A stretch of DNA of 38,678 nucleotides from Bacteroidota bacterium (GTDB taxonomy: Bacteria > Bacteroidota > JABWAT01): assembly GCA_013360915.1 (NCBI GenBank), contig JABWAT010000009.1, forward strand, positions 67,337 to 106,014, given 5' to 3'. The notes beneath the pieces are model-generated. The model was not told where the DNA came from. It was given only the letters and a program-made list of their open reading frames with translations, and did no database searches. A program made the position numbers and the translations under genes. Of this stretch, positions 27,001 through 38,068 are shown one piece after another. Numbering within the stretch: position 1 is the stretch's first letter; every line of letters begins with the position of its first letter.

Positions 27001-27675
27001 ATGAAAGGTTTGTTTTTCAGTATTATTTTTTTGGGATTTTCCGCGGTTAGTGCGCAGGGTCCGTACACCATGGCTCCACTTCCATACGCTTACAACGCAC
27101 TGGAGCCGTTCATCGATGCCCAGACCATGGAAATCCATTACAGCCGGCATCATGCCGGTTACGTCCGGAATCTGAACGCCGCGCTGGCGGGAAAAGAAGC
27201 CGAAAAATGGTCGCTCACCGATCTGATGAGCCGGATGTCCACCCAGAGCGAAGCCATCCGGAATAATGGGGGCGGTCATTACAACCACGACCTGTTCTGG
27301 AGCATTCTTACCCCGGAAAAGGATACCCGTCCATCCGCCGATCTGGAAAAAGCCATTTTGTCTCAATTCGGATCGCTGGATAGTCTGAAAACGCTGCTGA
27401 ACAAAGCGGCTTCCACCCGGTTCGGATCGGGATGGGCCTGGCTGGTGGTCACCTCAGATGGAAAACTGGCAGTGGGTTCCACACCCAATCAGGACAATCC
27501 GCTTATGGATATTTCTCCCTTCCGGGGCATTCCGATTCTCGGGATTGATGTGTGGGAACACGCTTACTACCTGAAATATCAGAATAAACGAGGTGATTAT
27601 CTGCAGGCGATCTGGTCGGTGATTAACTGGAAAGAAGTGTCGCGGCGGTACGAAGCAGCACGGGAGAAAAAGTAA
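27001..27675 (+). CDS. Exported superoxide dismutase (Fe/Mn family)
   Basis: A 224-residue SOD with signal peptide [19 protein letters not shown], so it should act in the periplasm, whereas most bacterial Fe/Mn-SODs are cytoplasmic. Metal ligands from the family pattern: His46 (MEIHYSRHH), His96 (HYNHDLFW), Asp183 and His187 (DVWEHAYY). Gln164 in TPNQDNPLM is at the place typical of Mn-type enzymes, but the metal cannot be settled from this. AGGAG is eight bases before the ATG. It converts superoxide to peroxide and oxygen; no catalase is nearby. Neighbours: divergent AraC regulator; downstream is a repeat block. Confidence 0.93.
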
Positions 27676-28121: not shown

Positions 28122-31100
28122 TCACCCGCCAGTCACCTGCTTCGCTTCGGGTTGTTCCAGAGGCAGCAGAATCCGGAAGGTGGTACCTTTGCCTTCCTCA
28201 CTGGTAACGGTAATGGTACCGTGGTGGGCCTGAATGATTCCGTAACTGATGGCAAGGCCGAGTCCTGTTCCTTTTCCCACCGGTTTTGTTGTAAAAAACG
28301 GGTCGAAAATGTGTTTCATCACCGGTTCAGGAATGCCGGTACCGGTATCAGTGAAGTCTATAAAAACCTGATCGCCATCGAGTCCGGTGGTAATGGTAAG
28401 GGTTCCTCCCGCCGGTAACATGGCATCCATGGCATTCACCACAATGTTCATGAAGACCTGATTGATTTGACCAGCATGACAAGGTACCTCGGGCAGCGGA
28501 CTGTATCGGCGTTCCATGACGATTTTGTCACGGGCTTCTGACCGGCACAGCATCAGGGTGGCTTCCAATCCTTCATGAATATCAGCCGGTTTAAATCCGC
28601 CGGAGTCACGCCGCGAAAAACTCCGCAGGCTGCGCACAATGTCGGCTGTGCGTTTCGAGCCGGTTTCAACGCCTCGGAGAAGGGTATCAATCTCGTCGCA
28701 GATATCCTGCAGGTCGGCTTGCCCGGCCACGGTTTTCAGCCGTTCCAGCAGATCGGATTCACCGTTGCCACCCGAAGCAGCCAGCAGTTCCCTGATCTGC
28801 CTGATAACCGACTTCAGTTCTGAAATGTCATCTTTCAGCGGATGGATGCTGGCATTGATGTAATTGACCGGGTTATTAATTTCATGTGCGATTCCAGCCA
28901 CCAATGTTCCCAGTGAAGCCATCTTTTCCGATTGGATCAGTTGCATCTGCATGGCCGACATTTCGGAAAGGGTCTGGTTCAATTGTTGATTGACTTCTTC
29001 CAGATGGTCCTTTTGTTTTCTGATTTCGCGGCTCTGCTCGAGGATCTGATTGTTTTTCCGTTGTGATTCTGAGAGCAGGAGGGATTTTTCCTCGAGCATG
29101 CTGGCTTTTGCAAAAGCATACTGAATATTCGATTTCAGATTGCGGAGCATGGAAAGATCCCGTTCGAGGAACGCTTCCGCCTGGCTCATGTTATCGAGAA
29201 TGATATAAGCGGCCGTGTACTGAGAGGCGGGAATACGCAGAACCACCAGCGATTTTGGTAATTCCAGTCCCCTGAATTTTTCATTGACTGGTAATTCGGT
29301 CACCGAGGTGAAACTGAAAATATCCTGAAACACTTCGGTTCCTGTGGAAACATAACGAGACCAGGCTTCGCTTTCGGTAAGCGTCACAGTCCGCAGATCC
29401 TCCAGATCCCATCCGTGGGCTGCTCTGAATTCGAACAGATTGGTATGTGGATTAAAGACCAGAACTGAAGATTTTTCCACACCGGGAATGGCAGATAAGT
29501 GGTCGAGAATGGTCTGGATCAGATCATCGAACCGCCATTCCGAATTAATGGCGCGGATGATGCCGTTCAGCCGCTCGAGTTCCTCATTTCTCTCCTTCAG
29601 TTCGGTGGTTCTGATCGCCACCATGGCTTCAAGCTGACGGTTTCTTGCTTTGAAGGACCGGAGGATCATCATGAGCAGACCATAGACGAGGGACGAGGCC
29701 AGCAGGAAGATCAGCGCAAGGGCCCACCACGTCAGATACCATGGGGTGGCCACCCGGAATGAAAATGAAACGGTATCAGACACAAGCCCTGCACCATTCC
29801 TGGCCACCAGACTGAAAGTATATCGGCCCGGCGAAAGGTTGGTGAATTCTTTCCGGTTTTCCGAGGTCCATGCAGACCAGTTTTCATCAAATCCACTCAG
29901 CCGGGTGCGGTAAACGGAGGGCTGGTCACTGATTTGTGAGGTTCCTGAAAAGGAGAACCGGATTCCCAGCAGACGGTCGGGAATGACCGGTTCGGTTTGG
30001 TCGGGGAGAGTGTACCAGGCGGGTCCGCTGAAAAAGACCGAGTCCTGACCGAATTCAATCCGGCTGATGACAGCACGGTTTAACAGTGGTCGTCCTGCAT
30101 CAGGAATGCGTTTAATGCTGAACAAGCCGGCTGTTCCTCCCACATAGAGGTGGTCTTTGTCTGCATCGAGCCAATACACCTGAAATTGGGGAATGCCGCC
30201 GGCTGCATCCTGTTTCCAGGTTTTGTCGGCAAGCCGGTACCGGTACAATTTACTTCCTGACCGGGCATAATAGACCGAGTCTCCCAGTGAAACCAGACGA
30301 AAGACATCAGAGGCCGTTCGCTTGAACCCCGTTTCGAGAACAGGGTCGGTAATCAGGCGAAGATGATCAGGTCCGGGTGAGAGCAATCCCTGCCGGGTTC
30401 CGAAGACAATGCGGCCGCCGGCAGAGAAGGGGGTGGACCATCCGGTGGGGTGACCGGCTGAGGTATCGATGACCGAAAAGGACCACAGGCCGGTTCCCGT
30501 TTTATTGAACCGCAAAGCCATGGAATTGTTGGTTCCAGCCCAGAGGTCACCTTTCCGGTCCTGATCGAGCTGCAAAATTTCACCAGGTGTTTTGAGGGTT
30601 TGAATGACCGGATATCCGGGAACATCTCTTAAAAACACCACCTGATCTTCCTGCCCGGCCACAAGAATCTGACGGTCGGTTTTTAGCCGGAACAAGGTGT
30701 AGGTGGTTCCCTTCAGAATCCTTTCAGGAGTTTGGCCCGAAACCAGCCAGACACCAGTGTAATTTCCTGCCAGAATCCCTGCATGACTTTCGATGACGGA
30801 CCAGGCCTGAACATCGAGACCGGGAACCAGTTTCGCTTTCGGTTCTCCCCGGGACAACCGAGGTTTTATGTCGATGCGATACACACCCTGACTGGTGGCG
30901 GCCCACCAATCGGTTTTTCCTCTGACCACATCGTTGACCGTTCCGTTCAATCCGTCTTTTCCGCTCAGACTGATGACCCCGTTTCCGAGATCGATGGCCG
31001 CCAGACCATTGTTCGTGGCCACCCACAATCTGCCATCCGGTGACCAGGTCACTGCCCGCACGGCCGGGTCGGGTAATCCGTTAGACTGATCAAAGTGGTG

Positions 31101-31952
31101 AAGGAGGGTCCCATCCGACCCGGTGATGACCAACCCGGATTTGGATGAACCAAAAACAAACCGTCCGTCGGGCAGTTGGATACCACAATACAGATTTCCG
31201 GTCAGGCTCCAGGTCCGGACCGGTTCGGGAAAGGGAATGACTCCGGAGCCATTTCTGAAAACCAGTCCGGTCTGCCGGTCGCCGGTGACCCACGATCCGT
31301 CCCCGCGCCGTAAAAGAACAAACTGAAGTTCGCCTGGTAAGGAGGGAAGATCACTTCCCGATTGCAAACGGCCGTTTTGGTAACGAAACAAGCCGCTGTC
31401 CTTAACCTGAATGTAAAAGTCCTTTCCGATCGCCCGGCTGGTCAGAAAACCCCGATCCGATTTAATGACGGTCAATGCGGAATCGGACCAGCGGAACAAA
31501 TGATGATCGGCCAGAAAAAAAACGCCCTCGCCGGTCACCCAGGTTTCCCAGATATTTGAGAAGGCTGGAAAACCAGCAGGAAGATGGCTGGTGAGACTTG
31601 AAAAAGAGGGTGCCTGGCTGTTTCGAAGGTCTACAATTCCAAAATCACCCTTCAGACCGGCAAAGAAAATACCATCCTGCAAAACCGCCACCGACCGCAC
31701 CACCTTCTGGGACGGCATGGGGATAAGAGACCAGGAGTTTCCGTTGAAAATCAACAAGCCGGAATTGTTTCCGGCAGCCACCAATCCATCCGGACTGGCC
31801 GAAATGGACCAATTCTGATTGTGAGCCTGGTACTCTGATGGAGGGACGACCCTGATGGCCGGAGATCCGGGAGGATCGGGTTCATGGGCATAAAGCAACT
31901 GACTGATCAGAAGTGCCGCGAGGACACCGGGTAAAAGATGCAGAAAACTCAT
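28122..31952 (-). CDS. Large periplasmic-propeller sensor histidine kinase with GAF domain (second kinase)
   Basis: A 1276-residue membrane sensor kinase. Parts: signal peptide (MSFLHLLPGVLAALLISQLLYA), periplasmic beta-propeller (about 30-650; blades such as SPDGRLWVATNNGLAAID), Y_Y_Y domain (about 655-730), TM helix at about 736-762 (WYLTWWALALIFLLASSLVY), coiled coil, GAF domain (about 800-945), second coiled coil, HisKA with phospho-acceptor His1023 (GIAHEINNPVNY), HATPase_c with N-box NQVFMNIVVNAMDAM, G1 DTGTGIPEP and GTGLGLAISYG. It has no receiver or AraC domain, unlike classic hybrid systems, and no response regulator is near. Its start overlaps the previous kinase stop by 4 nt. Confidence 0.92.
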   Translation of the reverse strand: MSFLHLLPGVLAALLISQLLYAHEPDPPGSPAIRVVPPSEYQAHNQNWSISASPDGLVAAGNNSGLLIFNGNSWSLIPMPSQKVVRSVAVLQDGIFFAGLKGDFGIVDLRNSQAPSFSSLTSHLPAGFPAFSNIWETWVTGEGVFFLADHHLFRWSDSALTVIKSDRGFLTSRAIGKDFYIQVKDSGLFRYQNGRLQSGSDLPSLPGELQFVLLRRGDGSWVTGDRQTGLVFRNGSGVIPFPEPVRTWSLTGNLYCGIQLPDGRFVFGSSKSGLVITGSDGTLLHHFDQSNGLPDPAVRAVTWSPDGRLWVATNNGLAAIDLGNGVISLSGKDGLNGTVNDVVRGKTDWWAATSQGVYRIDIKPRLSRGEPKAKLVPGLDVQAWSVIESHAGILAGNYTGVWLVSGQTPERILKGTTYTLFRLKTDRQILVAGQEDQVVFLRDVPGYPVIQTLKTPGEILQLDQDRKGDLWAGTNNSMALRFNKTGTGLWSFSVIDTSAGHPTGWSTPFSAGGRIVFGTRQGLLSPGPDHLRLITDPVLETGFKRTASDVFRLVSLGDSVYYARSGSKLYRYRLADKTWKQDAAGGIPQFQVYWLDADKDHLYVGGTAGLFSIKRIPDAGRPLLNRAVISRIEFGQDSVFFSGPAWYTLPDQTEPVIPDRLLGIRFSFSGTSQISDQPSVYRTRLSGFDENWSAWTSENRKEFTNLSPGRYTFSLVARNGAGLVSDTVSFSFRVATPWYLTWWALALIFLLASSLVYGLLMMILRSFKARNRQLEAMVAIRTTELKERNEELERLNGIIRAINSEWRFDDLIQTILDHLSAIPGVEKSSVLVFNPHTNLFEFRAAHGWDLEDLRTVTLTESEAWSRYVSTGTEVFQDIFSFTSVTELPVNEKFRGLELPKSLVVLRIPASQYTAAYIILDNMSQAEAFLERDLSMLRNLKSNIQYAFAKASMLEEKSLLLSESQRKNNQILEQSREIRKQKDHLEEVNQQLNQTLSEMSAMQMQLIQSEKMASLGTLVAGIAHEINNPVNYINASIHPLKDDISELKSVIRQIRELLAASGGNGESDLLERLKTVAGQADLQDICDEIDTLLRGVETGSKRTADIVRSLRSFSRRDSGGFKPADIHEGLEATLMLCRSEARDKIVMERRYSPLPEVPCHAGQINQVFMNIVVNAMDAMLPAGGTLTITTGLDGDQVFIDFTDTGTGIPEPVMKHIFDPFFTTKPVGKGTGLGLAISYGIIQAHHGTITVTSEEGKGTTFRILLPLEQPEAKQVTGG

Positions 31953-34900
31953 TGGGGAGATCCGTGCAGAGGAATGGTGATATCGGCCTGAATTCCGACA
32001 TCAGGATGATTCCGGAGAGTGAGTGACCCCTGATGGCGTTTCACCATGGCCAAAGCAAGAGTCAGTCCCATGCCCTGGTGCCTTCCCACCGGTTTGGTCG
32101 TGAAAAACGGATCAAAAACCCGTGGCAGAACAGGTTCCGGAATGCCGGGACCGGTATCGGAGATACTGATGACAATCCGGTTCTGATCGAGTCGGGTCGA
32201 AATGGTAATGGATCCGCCGGTGGGTTCAACTGCTTCGATGGCATTGATCAGAACGGCGAGAAACACCTGATTCATTTCCTGATGGTTCAGTTCAACGGCC
32301 GGCAGGGTTTTGTCAAAATGGGTGTCGATCCGGATGTCGGGTGTTAAACGGTGCTGAAGCAACGAAATGGCCATACTCAATCCCGAATGAACGTAATCGG
32401 TTTTCAGGACCGATTCATCCAACCGGGTGAATTTACGCAGGTCAGCAACAATGGCCGCCGTTCGTTTCGCCCCGCTTTCAATTCCATCGAGCACCTGTCG
32501 CGATTCGGTAAAAACATCGTGAACGTCCTCGGGTAATTTCTCCGGGACCCTGGCAGTCAGCATCGACTCGATTTCCTCCAGATTCCGACGGATGATCACA
32601 GCGCCTGACGTGATAAAATTGATGGGGTTGTTCATCTCATGAGCCAGCCCGGCCGTCAGTTGACCCACCGAGGCCAGTTTTTCCGATTCAACCAACCGGA
32701 CCTGAGCCTCCTTCAGATCGGAAAGCGTTGATTCCAACTCACGGGTTCTGACTCTGACCTGGTCTTCGAGCATGATTTTCTGAAGACTGATTCGGCGAAA
32801 CCGGATCCACACAATCAACCCTGCCAGTCCTCCGATCACGGCAATCAGCAGAAGACGGAACCAAAGGGTCATCCAGAAAGGCGGATGAACCACGATGGAC
32901 AGTTCCTTTTCGAACCGGCTGATTTTTCCGTCATGATTGGTCCCCCGAATCCTGAGAGTGAAAGTTCCCGGGTCCAGATTGGTGAAGGTGATCACTCCGC
33001 CGGCGCCCGCCTGCATCCATTCACGGGAAAACCCTTCCAGGAAAAAGTAAATCCGGTTAGAGGCCGGCCGGGTGAAATCCAAAGCAGATGCCCTAACCGT
33101 GATCACGTTTTCATCGTAGTTCACCTCGAAACCTGGAAGGAAAGAAGCTTCGCCCGAGGCAGGAACCACCCGGTCGAGAACATGAATGCGGCTGATGACC
33201 ACTGGTGCGTCATAGGTGAAGTCGGTGACCGAATCGGGATAGAATCGGTTGAATCCGTTAATTCCGCCGAAGAACAACTCGCCATCCGGTGATTCAAACA
33301 CCGAATTTGTATTAAACTCCATGGCCTGAAGTCCGTGCTGAGTGGAAAAGTGGCGGATGGAGCCCGAAACCGGATCCAGCCGGATCAGACCCAGATTGGT
33401 ACTCATCCAAATCCGGTTTTTTGCATCGCCTGCCACGGCGTAAATGTAAGTATTTATCAATCCTTCACGGGTGGTATAGCGGGTGAAGGTGCTGCTGTCC
33501 GGATTCATCCGGTTCAGTCCGTTGTTAGAGCCGGCCCATAAAACGCCCTGTCTGTCCACATAGACCGACCGGATGGTTGAATTGGAAAGGGAAAGTGTGT
33601 CGCCGGGATTATGAACCCATGATCTGAACCGTCCGGCTGCATCGGAATATCGGTGCAGTCCGGCAGGTGTGGCCACCCAGATGCTGCCATCCGGTCCTTC
33701 TGCAAGAGAGAAAACAGTACCATCCAGCAATCCGGAATCGTCGTCTGGTTCGAAATGTCTGATCAGCCGGCGATTCTGGTCGAGCAGTGTGACCCCGTGA
33801 TCGGTTCCAATCCATAATCTGTTCTGACGGTCTTCCAGAATAGCCCTGACAATCGGATCAACCAGAATCTGCTGATTTTTTTTATCGTCGAGCCAGAAGC
33901 CGGCTGGTTTTCCATCGGGACTCAGGCGGTTGGCACCCCGGCTGGTTCCCACCCAGATATACCCCTGACGATCCTCGGTCAGTGCCCAGATGTTGTGATG
34001 TCCGATGGAGGCGGGACCAACCGGGTAAGTGCGGAACCGGTCAGATTCCGGTTCCAGCAAATTCAGTCCGCCCCCCAGGGTGCCAACCCAAAGCCGGTTC
34101 TTCGAATCACGAAGCATACTGCGGATGTTGTTGTCAGAAAGTCCGGAACCGCCTGCCGATTTTCCCTGAACAAGGTTAAAAGGTTTTTTCTTCAGATCGG
34201 TACGACTCAAACCGCCCGCCGCCGTTCCCACCCACAGATTACCGGAACGATCGGCAAGCAAGGACCGGACCAGATCATTTGAAAGAGATTGATCCGATCC
34301 CGGATCATGCCGGATTTCCCGGATCCGTCCGGTTTGAGGATGAAGCAATTTCAATCCGTTGTCGGTACCCAGCCACAACCAGCCTTCCGGGTCTTTCAGA
34401 ATGCTGCGGATGGTGCCATCTCCAAACCGGTTAAGTGAGGAATATCGCGATGGAGATGAAACCGATTCCTTGAAAACCAGCCAGGTCCGGATGGAGGCCT
34501 CTTTCCACCGGTAGGCATTTAACCCGTTGGTGGTACCAATCCACAGAGTTTCCGCGTCATGGTCGTCATACAGCGAAAGAATCAGGGAATTCGACAGGCC
34601 GCCGGGTCCGGTTCCGATCACGGAAAAAGTACCATCGGACGGGCGGTACAGACTAAGGCCACTGGCTGTTCCAATGACCAGTTGACGGGTTTTTTCATGC
34701 CAGAGAAGTGCGAGTACCGAATTGGCAGGCAGAAAGGGATGGGTTTCGGAGGTGAACAGCCGGATGGTGCCGCTGTCAGTATCGATACGGTAGAGTCCCG
34801 ACTCGGTTCCCGCCCATAACACGCCATCGCCTCCGGTAGCCAGTGTCCAGATTCTGATATCCGGCAGCACAGTATGAAAGGTTCCGGTTGCATGGTGGTA

Positions 34901-35209
34901 CCGTTGCAATCCGCGCTGATGGGTACCAACCCAGAGCCGGTCCTTCCGGTCGGTCAGCAAGCTGGTTACCCATTCATCCGCCAGAGAGAGTGAGTCTCCG
35001 TTCACCGGCCGGAAAACCGTAAACTCATGCCCGTCATACCGGTTCAGGCCATCCTGTGTACCGATCCAGAGAAAACCGGTCGAATCCTGAACCATTGAAA
35101 AAACCGAACTCTGAGAAAGTCCTTCCTCCATGGAAATCCGGTTGAACACCGGGGTCTGAGACCAGACCTCTGATAGTGCAAACAGAGGAAGAAGGACGAT
35201 CAGCCGCAT
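31949..35209 (-). CDS. Large periplasmic-propeller sensor histidine kinase (first kinase)
   Basis: A 1086-residue sensor kinase. I use ATG 35209, which overlaps the UbiA stop by one base and gives signal peptide MRLIVLLPLFALSEVWSQ. The propeller has about 13 Reg_prop blades of the type GFLWIGTQDGLNRY, RLWVGTLGGGLNLL, ELFFGGINGFNRFYPD (about residues 25-695). Y_Y_Y about 705-770, TM at about 782-802, short coiled coil, HisKA His857 (GLAHEMNNPINF), HATPase_c with NQVFLAVLINAIEAV, DTGPGIPEP and HQGMGLTLALAMV. No GAF, receiver or DNA-binding domain. It senses something in the periplasm; the partner regulator is not in this window. Confidence 0.92.
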   Translation of the reverse strand: MRLIVLLPLFALSEVWSQTPVFNRISMEEGLSQSSVFSMVQDSTGFLWIGTQDGLNRYDGHEFTVFRPVNGDSLSLADEWVTSLLTDRKDRLWVGTHQRGLQRYHHATGTFHTVLPDIRIWTLATGGDGVLWAGTESGLYRIDTDSGTIRLFTSETHPFLPANSVLALLWHEKTRQLVIGTASGLSLYRPSDGTFSVIGTGPGGLSNSLILSLYDDHDAETLWIGTTNGLNAYRWKEASIRTWLVFKESVSSPSRYSSLNRFGDGTIRSILKDPEGWLWLGTDNGLKLLHPQTGRIREIRHDPGSDQSLSNDLVRSLLADRSGNLWVGTAAGGLSRTDLKKKPFNLVQGKSAGGSGLSDNNIRSMLRDSKNRLWVGTLGGGLNLLEPESDRFRTYPVGPASIGHHNIWALTEDRQGYIWVGTSRGANRLSPDGKPAGFWLDDKKNQQILVDPIVRAILEDRQNRLWIGTDHGVTLLDQNRRLIRHFEPDDDSGLLDGTVFSLAEGPDGSIWVATPAGLHRYSDAAGRFRSWVHNPGDTLSLSNSTIRSVYVDRQGVLWAGSNNGLNRMNPDSSTFTRYTTREGLINTYIYAVAGDAKNRIWMSTNLGLIRLDPVSGSIRHFSTQHGLQAMEFNTNSVFESPDGELFFGGINGFNRFYPDSVTDFTYDAPVVISRIHVLDRVVPASGEASFLPGFEVNYDENVITVRASALDFTRPASNRIYFFLEGFSREWMQAGAGGVITFTNLDPGTFTLRIRGTNHDGKISRFEKELSIVVHPPFWMTLWFRLLLIAVIGGLAGLIVWIRFRRISLQKIMLEDQVRVRTRELESTLSDLKEAQVRLVESEKLASVGQLTAGLAHEMNNPINFITSGAVIIRRNLEEIESMLTARVPEKLPEDVHDVFTESRQVLDGIESGAKRTAAIVADLRKFTRLDESVLKTDYVHSGLSMAISLLQHRLTPDIRIDTHFDKTLPAVELNHQEMNQVFLAVLINAIEAVEPTGGSITISTRLDQNRIVISISDTGPGIPEPVLPRVFDPFFTTKPVGRHQGMGLTLALAMVKRHQGSLTLRNHPDVGIQADITIPLHGSPQ

Positions 35210-36111
35210 CAGAACAACCAACCGGACCGGATGATCAGGTGAATTATAAAGACGAGGGACAAACTGACCGATGACCAGCGGTTCATCCACATGGTGTTTT
35301 CAAAATCAGCTTCTGCCGGATCTTTCCTGACGCGGTAAAACCACAATTCGAAGTATGCAAGAACCGGAATCATTCCAATGATAAATACCATGGCATTCCA
35401 CGGACCGGTGAACAGGATCAGCATGACAGTCAGGGCCAATCCTGCCAACCCCAGCACCAGTCTGGCGAAGAAAAAGGTGCCGTTGATTCCGAGAAGAAGG
35501 CTGAGCGTCTTGTCACCCCGCCTGGAATCTTCGGCATGCTGATACACCTGGGTGAGCGGGTAAGAACCCAGTAAAAACAGGGTGGAAATGAGTGCAAATC
35601 CCACATTTACAGGAGCGGATAACTGATCGGTGGAATACCCCAATCCGACCTGAATGGTCAGAAACATCCAGAAACCCTGAAAAACCGAAACCACACCGGC
35701 TGAGAGGATGGGGTACTTTTTCAGACGGATGGTGGGTTGGGAGTAGGCTTTGGATACAAGTGTGTAAACCAGAATTCCGGCAAAGAACAAGGGCGATATC
35801 AGCCAGGAAAGAATCAAACCCAGTCCATCGAACAGAAGCACCAGCCAGAACAGTTCTTTGGTGACCCGGGGTGGGGTTTTCAGGCCGCCAATGCTGCCTT
35901 CATCACGGTCATGCCAGGAATTATATCCGTTGCTGGCCGGGTAAACCAGTAAATGAATGATGGCAAAAACCACTACGGCATGAAGGGGGACCGCACCATC
36001 GGTCAGGCTGAGGGCCATCCAGAAGACGGGCATGAGATAAACCGAGAAGGGAATCCGCATCAGCCTGAAGGCAGATATCCATCTGGAAAGGGAATTGGGG
36101 TGGACCGTCAT
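35209..36111 (-). CDS. UbiA-family prenyltransferase
   Basis: A 300-residue polytopic prenyltransferase with eight or nine TM helices. The first Asp-rich motif is N61-GYNSWH-D68-R-D70, the second HAED195SRRGD200KTLSLLLG; between them is KAYSQPTIRLKKYP, the YS.PP.RLK loop of the superfamily. It would transfer a prenyl chain from a diphosphate to an aromatic or other acceptor in the membrane. I use ATG 36111; a longer frame to 36216 has no TM and no binding site. It is divergent from the type III polyketide synthase (152-bp gap) and its stop overlaps the first kinase, so it leads a three-gene operon. The product of the PKS is a plausible acceptor (inference). Confidence 0.88.
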   Translation of the reverse strand: MTVHPNSLSRWISAFRLMRIPFSVYLMPVFWMALSLTDGAVPLHAVVVFAIIHLLVYPASNGYNSWHDRDEGSIGGLKTPPRVTKELFWLVLLFDGLGLILSWLISPLFFAGILVYTLVSKAYSQPTIRLKKYPILSAGVVSVFQGFWMFLTIQVGLGYSTDQLSAPVNVGFALISTLFLLGSYPLTQVYQHAEDSRRGDKTLSLLLGINGTFFFARLVLGLAGLALTVMLILFTGPWNAMVFIIGMIPVLAYFELWFYRVRKDPAEADFENTMWMNRWSSVSLSLVFIIHLIIRSGWLF

Positions 36112-36263
36112 GATTTCTTTTTCGGATAAATATGAGGAATCCCAGAAGTAAATGGCAAAAACGCGAAGGGTGCCGGGGGGTTCTCTGGTAAAAATGTGGG
36201 GTTTGCCACATATCATTCCGGCTGGATTGAACCAAAGTCGGGTGACTCAATGTTTAGTACCTC
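36112..36263 (+). promoter_or_regulatory. Divergent control region between UbiA and type III PKS genes
   Basis: 152 bp serve both transcription units. An inverted repeat ATGTGG / CCACAT (36194-36199, 36206-36211) with a 6-nt spacer lies near the middle and may be a regulator site. I see no good TAnnTTTG box in either direction. Confidence 0.45.
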
Positions 36264-37373
36264 ATGAGTCAGATCGTTTCTATTGGCACGGCCGTGCCTG
36301 ATTATCAGCTTAAACAATCCCAGGTTGCAGACTGGATGGTCTCGCAATTACACCTGATGGGAAGAGATGCCGACCGGCTGCGGATTCTGTATGAACGGAG
36401 TGCCATCGATACCCGGTATTCGGCCATTCCCGATTATGGCTGCGAACCCGGCGATCGGGTCCTGTTTCCCGAAACGGCTGATCTGGAGCCATTCCCCGGG
36501 GTTTCAGCCCGAATGGCGCTTTTTCATCCACCGGCCAGAGAACTGGCCCTGGCTTCAGCCCGGCAGGCTCTTGAAAGAGTCCGGGTATCGCTGCAACCGA
36601 CTCATGTGATTTCGGTGACCTGTACCGGCCTGGCTGCTCCCGGACTCGATATCGATCTGGTTACCGGACTCGATCTGCCCGGGTCAACGATTCGCACATC
36701 GGTTAACTTCATGGGATGTTATGCCGCCTTTCACGCTCTGAAACTGGCCGATGCTTTTTGCAGGGCCGATCAGGAAGCCGTGGTGCTGGTTGATGCCGTC
36801 GAATTGTGCACCCTCCATTTTCAGAAACTGAACGAACCCGATCATCTGCTTGCCAATTCGCTGTTTGCCGACGGATCGGCTTCTGCCCTGATCATGAGCG
36901 ATCAAAAGGCACGTCGGCTGGGACTCCCCGGTCTTACCATTGCCGGCTTCTGGTCCGAACTGGCGCTTCACGGCCGGTCCGACATGGCCTGGGCCATCGG
37001 CGATACGGGATTTCTCATGACCCTCAGCTCGTACATTCCCGATCTGGTCAAACATGGAATCGGACCGCTGACCGACCGGGTGTTTCAGGCGGCCGGACTG
37101 ACGACCAGCGAGATTCACCATTGGGCCATTCACCCCGGTGGCCGCAAAATTCTGGAATCCACCGCATCTGCCCTCGGGTTAAATCCGGAAAAGCTCGCCT
37201 CCTCTTTCCGGGTTTTGCGCCAGTTTGGAAACATGAGTTCTCCGACAGTTCTGTTTGTTCTGAAAGACCTGTGGGATTCCACGCTGAATTTTGACCGGCA
37301 GGAAACGGTCTTTTCGGCCGGATTCGGTCCCGGTCTGACGCTTGAATCGGCCGTTTTTAAAACCATTTCATGA
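36264..37373 (+). CDS. Type III polyketide synthase (chalcone/stilbene synthase-like)
   Basis: A 369-residue homodimeric ketosynthase. Triad residues: Cys152 in NFMGCYAAFHAL, His290 in HWAIHPGGRKIL, Asn323 in FGNMSSPT. The N-terminal thiolase-like domain covers about 1-225 (THVISVTCTGLAAPGLDIDL), the C-terminal one 226-369, ending FSAGFGPGLTLESAVF with the GFGPG loop. It would extend an acyl-CoA starter with malonyl-CoA and cyclise the chain to a resorcinol, pyrone or phloroglucinol; the starter cannot be predicted. The gene overlaps the methyltransferase start by 4 nt (ATGA). The UbiA gene is divergent. No strong binding site precedes the ATG. Confidence 0.94.
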   Translation: MSQIVSIGTAVPDYQLKQSQVADWMVSQLHLMGRDADRLRILYERSAIDTRYSAIPDYGCEPGDRVLFPETADLEPFPGVSARMALFHPPARELALASARQALERVRVSLQPTHVISVTCTGLAAPGLDIDLVTGLDLPGSTIRTSVNFMGCYAAFHALKLADAFCRADQEAVVLVDAVELCTLHFQKLNEPDHLLANSLFADGSASALIMSDQKARRLGLPGLTIAGFWSELALHGRSDMAWAIGDTGFLMTLSSYIPDLVKHGIGPLTDRVFQAAGLTTSEIHHWAIHPGGRKILESTASALGLNPEKLASSFRVLRQFGNMSSPTVLFVLKDLWDSTLNFDRQETVFSAGFGPGLTLESAVFKTIS

Positions 37374-38068
37374 TACGAAGTCTGAAACAGCGGGTGGATG
37401 AACCCGAATTACTGGATGATCCCGGAATTCCGGAAGGGGAACTGATTGATAATCTGAAGGAACTGGAGTGGATCAACCGGTTGCTGGGCGGTCATGCCAT
37501 TACCATTTCCGGATTGAAAGGGCTGATTGGCGGCGACCGTTCCCGGACCTGGACCATCACCGATCTGGGATGCGGGGGAGGAGACACGCTGCGGGCCATC
37601 AGTCACTGGGCAGGGAAGCATCAGATTCCGGTCAGACTGGTTGGAATCGATCTGAATCCAGCCTGTATCCGGTATGCGCAACGGGCGTCTCAATCATATA
37701 ATATTGAATGGATCTGTGCCGATTTCCGGGAAGCAATTCCGGCTGATACCGACATTCTTATCAATTCGCTGTTTTGCCATCATCTGGATGATTCCAGTCT
37801 GAAAGAGTTGTTGCTGCTGATGAAAAACAAGGCCCGGCGTGGATTTGTTATCAACGATCTGCAACGGCATCAGGTCGCATTCGCGTCCATCTGGATATTA
37901 ACCCGGCTGCTGAACGGTTCACGACTGGTTCGTCATGATGCCCCTCTGTCGGTGGCTCGGAGTTTTCATCGCCATGAATGGCTGACCCGGTTGTCAGAGG
38001 CCGGTCTGGCTTCGTCCCGCCTGTCCTGGAGATGGGCATTCCGCTGGCAGGTGGTTTATGAAAAATAG
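37370..38068 (+). CDS. SAM-dependent methyltransferase coupled to the type III PKS
   Basis: A 232-residue class I methyltransferase. Motif I is DLGCGGG (65-71) and the acidic residue binding the SAM ribose is Asp94 in GIDLNPACI; CHHLDD (136-141) is the region after strand 4, and FVINDLQRH is strand 5. The N-terminal ELLDDPGIPEGELIDNLKEL and the C-terminal HDAPLSVARSFHRHEW are marks I recall from methyltransferases that accompany type III polyketide synthases in Bacteroidota. It would methylate the PKS product, on O or C, not determined. It overlaps the PKS stop by 4 nt. After it comes a repeat block rather than the oxidoreductase often found in such clusters. Confidence 0.88.
   Translation: MIRSLKQRVDEPELLDDPGIPEGELIDNLKELEWINRLLGGHAITISGLKGLIGGDRSRTWTITDLGCGGGDTLRAISHWAGKHQIPVRLVGIDLNPACIRYAQRASQSYNIEWICADFREAIPADTDILINSLFCHHLDDSSLKELLLLMKNKARRGFVINDLQRHQVAFASIWILTRLLNGSRLVRHDAPLSVARSFHRHEWLTRLSEAGLASSRLSWRWAFRWQVVYEK

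Follow-up and report, generated by a model that had tools for sequence, protein, structure and literature searches.

Organization of the locus

The window, which is the whole stretch of 38,678 nucleotides analysed here, encodes two propeller/Y_Y_Y histidine kinases next to each other on the minus strand, hereafter K1 and K2. K1 (28122-31952) is an ORF of 1276 aa. K2 (31949-35209) has 1086 aa when read from an ATG that opens a signal-like peptide, or extends over 31949-35290 when the GTG that is its first possible start is used. Both ORFs are intact and full length. K2 and K1 overlap by a 4-base stop/start, ATGA (31949-31952), and the stop codon of a UbiA-family prenyltransferase gene (35209-36216, minus strand) overlaps the ATG of K2 as TGATG. 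UbiA, K2 and K1 follow one another in this order on the minus strand as three genes, each overlapping the next, and form a single unit. Divergent from UbiA, the plus strand carries a chalcone/stilbene-synthase-like (type III polyketide) synthase gene (36264-37373) and a methyltransferase gene that overlaps it (37370-38068), in agreement with a sequence-only reading of the same DNA in which the neighbours of the kinases had been called biosynthetic. Scans around the UbiA-K2-K1 unit returned 4 promoters (6.0 expected) and 17 terminators (12.0 expected, sd 3.8). An Fe/Mn superoxide dismutase with an N-terminus that looks signal-like by eye is encoded at 27001-27675.

Architecture of K1 and K2

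According to Pfam, K2 contains Reg_prop (187.4 bits), Y_Y_Y (43.2), HisKA (27.7) and HATPase_c (68.1) domains, arranged as a propeller/Y_Y_Y sensor, a transmembrane helix near residue 784, a DHp region with His857 and HATPase_c. Its sensor sequence matched 4a2l at E=1e-93, and 3v9f and 3ott were also matched. K1 consists of a double-propeller/Y_Y_Y periplasmic sensor, a transmembrane helix near residue 746, a GAF-like segment, a DHp region with His1023 and HATPase_c (90.8 bits); Y_Y_Y scored 34.6 bits, and its propeller is weak by sequence (Reg_prop, 30.4 bits). In each protein, the transmembrane helix is the single strong hydrophobic helix after Y_Y_Y. HisKA exceeded the curated cut-off only in K2 (27.7 vs 26.9), and the DHp region of K1 was recognised through its HEINNP box and by alignment. 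A structural model of residues 1-760 of K1 (pLDDT 80.8) matched the BT4663 periplasmic domain (4a2l) over its whole length with a TM score of 0.71, the best match in the PDB; the sensor of K1 is thus modelled as a BT4663-like fold. The model of the cytoplasmic half reached a pLDDT of 54.3, with the GAF region below 50.

The GAF-like segment of K1 (29136-29531, minus strand, residues about 808-939) matched GAF_3 at E=4e-4 with 21.2 bits, under the curated threshold of 27. It is homologous to segments of two other sensors, L110 and the orphan C2:305146 of the same genome, the latter having no Pfam GAF match at E<=0.05. The GAF domain of K1 is therefore weak but real, and the earlier observation that just one kinase of the pair has a GAF domain holds, K1 being that kinase. 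Relatives of the K1 sensor share 22-25% identity across the aligned sensors; L044 and L130 have kinase cores, while the C-terminal ends of L117 and L118 contain LuxR-like HTH regions (GerE below cut-off). L110 (L110:286-4509) joins a propeller/Y_Y_Y sensor of the K1 type and the GAF-like segment to a SpoIIE phosphatase and HATPase_c_2.

Receivers around the pair

Pfam revealed no receiver and no HTH, including the AraC type, in the K1 or K2 chain at E<=0.001, and no receiver ORF was found in the window using a receiver profile built in this analysis. These results, together with the ORFs, bear out the initial description of two neighbouring non-hybrid propeller kinases that both end at HATPase_c and have no regulator nearby. 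The closest receiver on the contig, C9:65117-65452, is separated from K1 by 30.0 kb and from K2 by 33.8 kb. Beyond K2, the contig continues for another 3.5 kb.

We compared four genomes of one family, namely that of the window (G000) and G001, G002 and G003. No receiver was found in the syntenic region of G003 that covers the side beyond the contig end, nor in the two G002 contig ends around K2. The 37 kb read around K2 in G003 contained one receiver protein, located 18 kb away in a separate gene group. Thus, no response regulator gene was found in the same operon as K2 in G003 or G002; for K1, the statement that no regulator is nearby applies to its own genome.

The protein with this closest receiver, encoded at C9:65084-66049 (321 aa), was considered as a partner. 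It consists of a receiver followed by a part without Pfam match and is conserved in G003, where it is 18 kb from K2. Given its own gene group and its distance, it is a weak candidate. It is preceded by genes that look STAS-like and hemerythrin-like by eye.

Receiver-less propeller kinases are frequent in the genome

A census of the genome revealed 20 propeller/Y_Y_Y signalling proteins, corresponding to 19 Y_Y_Y places at E<=0.001 (17 above cut-off) and C23:12664, which has Reg_prop only; C20:3237, a 936-aa Reg_prop protein without recognised signalling domain, falls outside this count. Five of the 20 have a receiver in the chain, four have a receiver gene within 60 bp, one is an MCPsignal chemoreceptor and ten are kinases with neither. 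These ten comprise K1, K2 and 8 of the 18 others, none with a receiver within 10 kb. For the eight, one of which sits 401 bases from a contig end, the distance to the nearest receiver ranges from 10.3 to 103 kb, or the contig has none. Pfam domains were scanned in 18 of the 20 proteins (K1, K2 and 16 others); one of these 18, C13:79815, has an AraC HTH and is a classic receiver/AraC hybrid. Genome-wide, a receiver was absent within 5 kb of 24 of the 66 HATPase_c matches, some of which are not kinases, and HATPase_c was likewise absent within 5 kb of 15 of the 63 receivers.

The propeller/Y_Y_Y sensor kinase family is expanded in this Bacteroidota lineage. The missing receiver and AraC domains had been taken to set the pair apart, a view that the eight other receiver-less kinases do not support. 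The contrast with classic hybrids is correct, yet it says little here because receiver-less propeller kinases are frequent in this genome. Outside the family, the orphan state is a minority among kinases with a K1-type core: for 99 related cores on public genome contigs, the receiver was in the chain in 7 cases, within 300 bp in 41 and within 5 kb in 21, 14 had no receiver within 5 kb and 16 were undecidable.

The propeller/Y_Y_Y sensor encoded at G000:C22:20721-23951 (L021:8222-11452) carries a chemoreceptor signalling domain in place of a kinase, and G000:C6:109487-111058 (L204) encodes a receiver-PglZ protein with no kinase within 5 kb.

Conservation and phylogeny of K1 and K2

K2 lies behind UbiA, in the same position, in three of the four family genomes (G000, G002 and G003), and in G002 and G003 K2 also overlaps UbiA, there by 4 bases. 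Next to the methyltransferase-synthase/UbiA-K2 block of G003 come unrelated, oppositely oriented genes and, after these, TetR/efflux genes that are also present in the window. G002 has the same arrangement without K1, at two contig ends. In G001, UbiA was not found at E<=1e-20 (best two candidates scored), and no K2-group member was found either, the best matches to K2 falling in other groups. With K1 the best 8 candidates of each genome were scored, with K2 the best 9; in G001, G002 and G003, none of the best 8 was a K1 orthologue, although a remote one could escape at this depth. Co-occurrence of K1 and K2 was not observed, as G002 and G003 have K2 without K1.

A tree built from 40 of the 46 collected kinase cores, the 6 remote ones being left out, grouped K2 with its two orthologues (support 99/96) on a long branch for K2 (1.54). 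The K1 core was closest to group D, and no supported group comprising half of the rows or fewer included K1; none of the rows from G001, G002 or G003 was a K1 orthologue. The K1 and K2 cores, 35.7% identical, are not sisters. Five further groups (B to F) are represented once in every one of the four genomes. The members of groups B and D lack a receiver within 10 kb in the genome of the window and, in G001 to G003, within the surrounding sequence that was fetched; both groups are conserved orphan propeller kinases.

All four genomes also contain another tandem pair (C2:442345/C2:445719 in the genome of the window; groups F and C). As with K1 and K2, its two propeller kinases are encoded one after the other on a single strand; the pair differs in that one of them is a hybrid with a receiver and in that a REC-HisKA-HATPase gene (C2:441082-442332) follows, this gene adjoining C2:442345 and its orthologues in all four genomes.

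K1 and K2 differ in the partner-determining stretch

The choice of the phosphotransfer partner is determined by the DHp stretch from His+6 to His+20. K1 and K2 are identical at 2 of these 15 positions. K1 shares 8-10 of 15 with several kinase groups of the family, its phosphotransfer stretch being similar to that of other propeller kinases of the family, and K2 shares 5 of 15 with its own orthologues. The match of 2/15 argues against a shared receiver and against K1/K2 heterodimers.

Heterodimers, or convergence of both kinases on a single remote response regulator, had been proposed from the DPFFTTKPVG core common to the two C-termini. This core is indeed present in both, but it is the ordinary F box of this kinase class, found in many unrelated members. 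In favour of the proposal, both proteins are of the HExNNP class with an identical F box, and their overlapping unit makes co-expression likely; against it stand the presence of K2 without K1 in two relatives, the non-sister cores, the divergent DHp stretch and a GAF-like linker found in K1 only. We therefore consider the proposal unsupported and very unlikely.

For K1, the best guesses at a partner would be the receiver-kinase adjoining the related C2:442345 or one of two orphan NtrC-type regulators. The criteria conflict: architecture points to an NtrC-type regulator, the DHp stretch of L027/L028 (8/15 with K1) to a receiver-cyclase and group F to a receiver-kinase. The architectural argument comes from L030, L041 and L042, three FG-GAP-propeller/GAF kinases with K1-related cores located beside NtrC-type regulators. 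They resemble K1 in their periplasmic propeller, GAF domain and related core, but have a propeller of another family and an adjacent regulator gene. Sigma-54 sites as a hint of an NtrC-type partner gave no support: 18 matches with <=2 mismatches were found in the window and 18.0 were expected, one match being at 36284-36299 within the synthase gene.

Of the two NtrC-type genes, G000:C2:216030-217415 (L200:8031-9416) encodes a receiver, a sigma-54 domain and a Fis HTH with no kinase near, in a gene order that is the same in G001, G002 and G003. The second, G000:C2:535177-537498 (L201), is followed by a receiver-DUF4388 protein gene and has no HATPase_c within 13 kb.

K2 lacks the first asparagine of the N box

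The H box with an acidic H+1 residue and the G1, F and G2 boxes are present in both kinases, the G2 box of K2 reading GRHQGMGL. K1 has a complete N box with both asparagines, the first being Asn1169 (28446-28448, minus strand). In contrast, alignment to solved kinases and to 45 other cores places Ala985 of K2 (32255-32257, minus strand) at the first N-box position, equivalent to Asn356 of CpxA, while the second asparagine (Asn989) is retained. Degeneracy of one kinase, which would count against the sequence-only reading, is partly touched on by this conserved N-box change in K2. Among 153 distinct matched cores, a set collected with the K1 core as query and not a general sample, 149 have Asn-Asn and 4 rows have Ala-Asn, these being K2 itself (twice) and its G002 and G003 orthologues; the other cores of the first alignment likewise have Asn at this position. 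Because Ala is found in all three K2 orthologues, the change is old. The missing N-box asparagine in K2 is the one unusual feature of the pair.

In a study of CpxA, Asn356 is described as touching the Glu next to the phospho-His, the N356Y mutant as strongly kinase-deficient, and Asn360, the equivalent of which is kept in K2, as strictly conserved and essential (PMC3904827). Another report ties the H+1 Glu and the H+4 Asn to kinase and phosphatase action (PMC8292422); K2 retains both. The K2 core is 46.2% identical between G000 and G003, which represent two genera, the lowest value of six orthologous groups (48.1-64.3% for the others). Between G002 and G003, two pieces of K2 gave dN/dS values of 0.10 and 0.095, indicating purifying selection in the sister genus, with 0.073 for UbiA, 0.044 for the synthase and 0.076 for the methyltransferase.

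These observations bear on whether one or both kinases are decaying remnants, as the N-box Ala and the long branch of K2 could suggest. Two full-length ORFs, a dN/dS of about 0.1 for K2 and an Ala common to its three orthologues make such decay highly improbable. K2 may be a weak kinase or a phosphatase-biased sensor tied to the UbiA/type III polyketide locus. A specific form of this idea, in which K2 is kinase-impaired and phosphatase-biased while K1, with its intact boxes, supplies the kinase activity in its own lineage, is conceivable but rather unlikely. It would agree with an Ala in K2 and both orthologues where the other 149 of 149 matched cores have Asn, with the CpxA N356Y phenotype, with the retention of the catalytic second Asn, of the H+1 Glu and of the H+4 Asn, the last being required for phosphatase action, and with the least conserved core being nevertheless under purifying selection. 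However, the CpxA change is to Tyr and that of K2 is to Ala, so the effect is not directly transferable, and the comparison set was gathered with the K1 core. Furthermore, K2 is not accompanied by K1 in G002 and G003, and the divergent DHp stretches make action on a common receiver doubtful. We regard as unlikely the broader proposal that the K2 group, co-translated with UbiA, is a conserved kinase-impaired sensor whose main role is to dephosphorylate a receiver, or which works by a route not involving phosphate, and which reports on a prenylated polyketide lipid, the complete kinase K1 having been added behind it in this genus.

The biosynthetic set is older than its association with K2

Eight genomes of other families had a UbiA match, and the neighbourhoods of five were fetched (all but G041, G064 and G068). 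UbiA, synthase and methyltransferase genes were found together in four of the five (G048, G075, G032 and G063, not G071), and none of the five contained a K1/K2-like ORF. The presence of the biosynthetic set without a K1/K2-like gene in other families makes K2 a family-level addition to an older set. The gene order in three genomes suggests that K2 may sense the product of the UbiA locus.

The UbiA/type III polyketide-like synthase/methyltransferase set (window 35209-38068 and L184-L187) is common to several Bacteroidota families. In one of the five neighbourhoods, a receiver gene (G048:360495-361247, 250 aa) lies about 1.4 kb from the methyltransferase gene, behind a 721-aa ORF on its own strand; between it and UbiA come the oppositely oriented synthase and methyltransferase genes. 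It could provide a lead for a regulator near the lipid locus.

Orphan propeller kinases in a broader context

We propose that K1 and K2 are separately derived, non-hybrid orphan members of an expanded propeller/Y_Y_Y kinase family, and assign a probability of roughly 0.7 to this account, including the following mechanism. Each kinase would homodimerise, and its double propeller would sense a periplasmic ligand. Y_Y_Y and then the membrane helix would relay the resulting change to the DHp helices, and phosphate exchange would occur in trans, with a receiver from another locus. K2, which is translated together with UbiA, would most likely report on the product of the UbiA/synthase/methyltransferase locus, be it an envelope lipid or a prenylated polyketide. 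K1 would be a mosaic added behind K2 in its own lineage, with its own sensor type, a GAF-like linker and a core of the 'SIxPL' interface type.

Orphan propeller kinases are not exceptional, being frequent in this genome and already published in the case of ReeS, an orphan sensor histidine kinase of Clostridium perfringens with propeller and YYY domains and a kinase C-terminus (PMC3762733). That report describes ReeS as sharing 26-29% identity with BT3334 and BT4663, both of them hybrids, with no receiver or DNA-binding domain and with no signalling genes found around it (PMC3762733). K1 and K2 resemble ReeS, as described there, in their propeller/Y_Y_Y sensor, their kinase end and the lack of a receiver or effector domain and of a nearby regulator. 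ReeS differs in being a single gene from another phylum linked to sialidase expression and not to a UbiA/polyketide locus. K1 and K2 also share the periplasmic double propeller and Y_Y_Y of the hybrids BT4663, BT3049 and BT4673 but, unlike these, have no receiver or AraC domain and are not located beside carbohydrate genes.

If the N-box Ala does bias K2 toward phosphatase action, proteins of this kind could be recognised from sequence by a single residue. Most of what is known of propeller sensors comes from carbohydrate-sensing hybrids. The lineage studied here keeps several receiver-less propeller kinases as conserved groups, one of which is fixed behind a lipid/polyketide enzyme gene. These groups therefore offer a tractable case for the study of non-glycan ligands and of how orphan kinases find their regulators.
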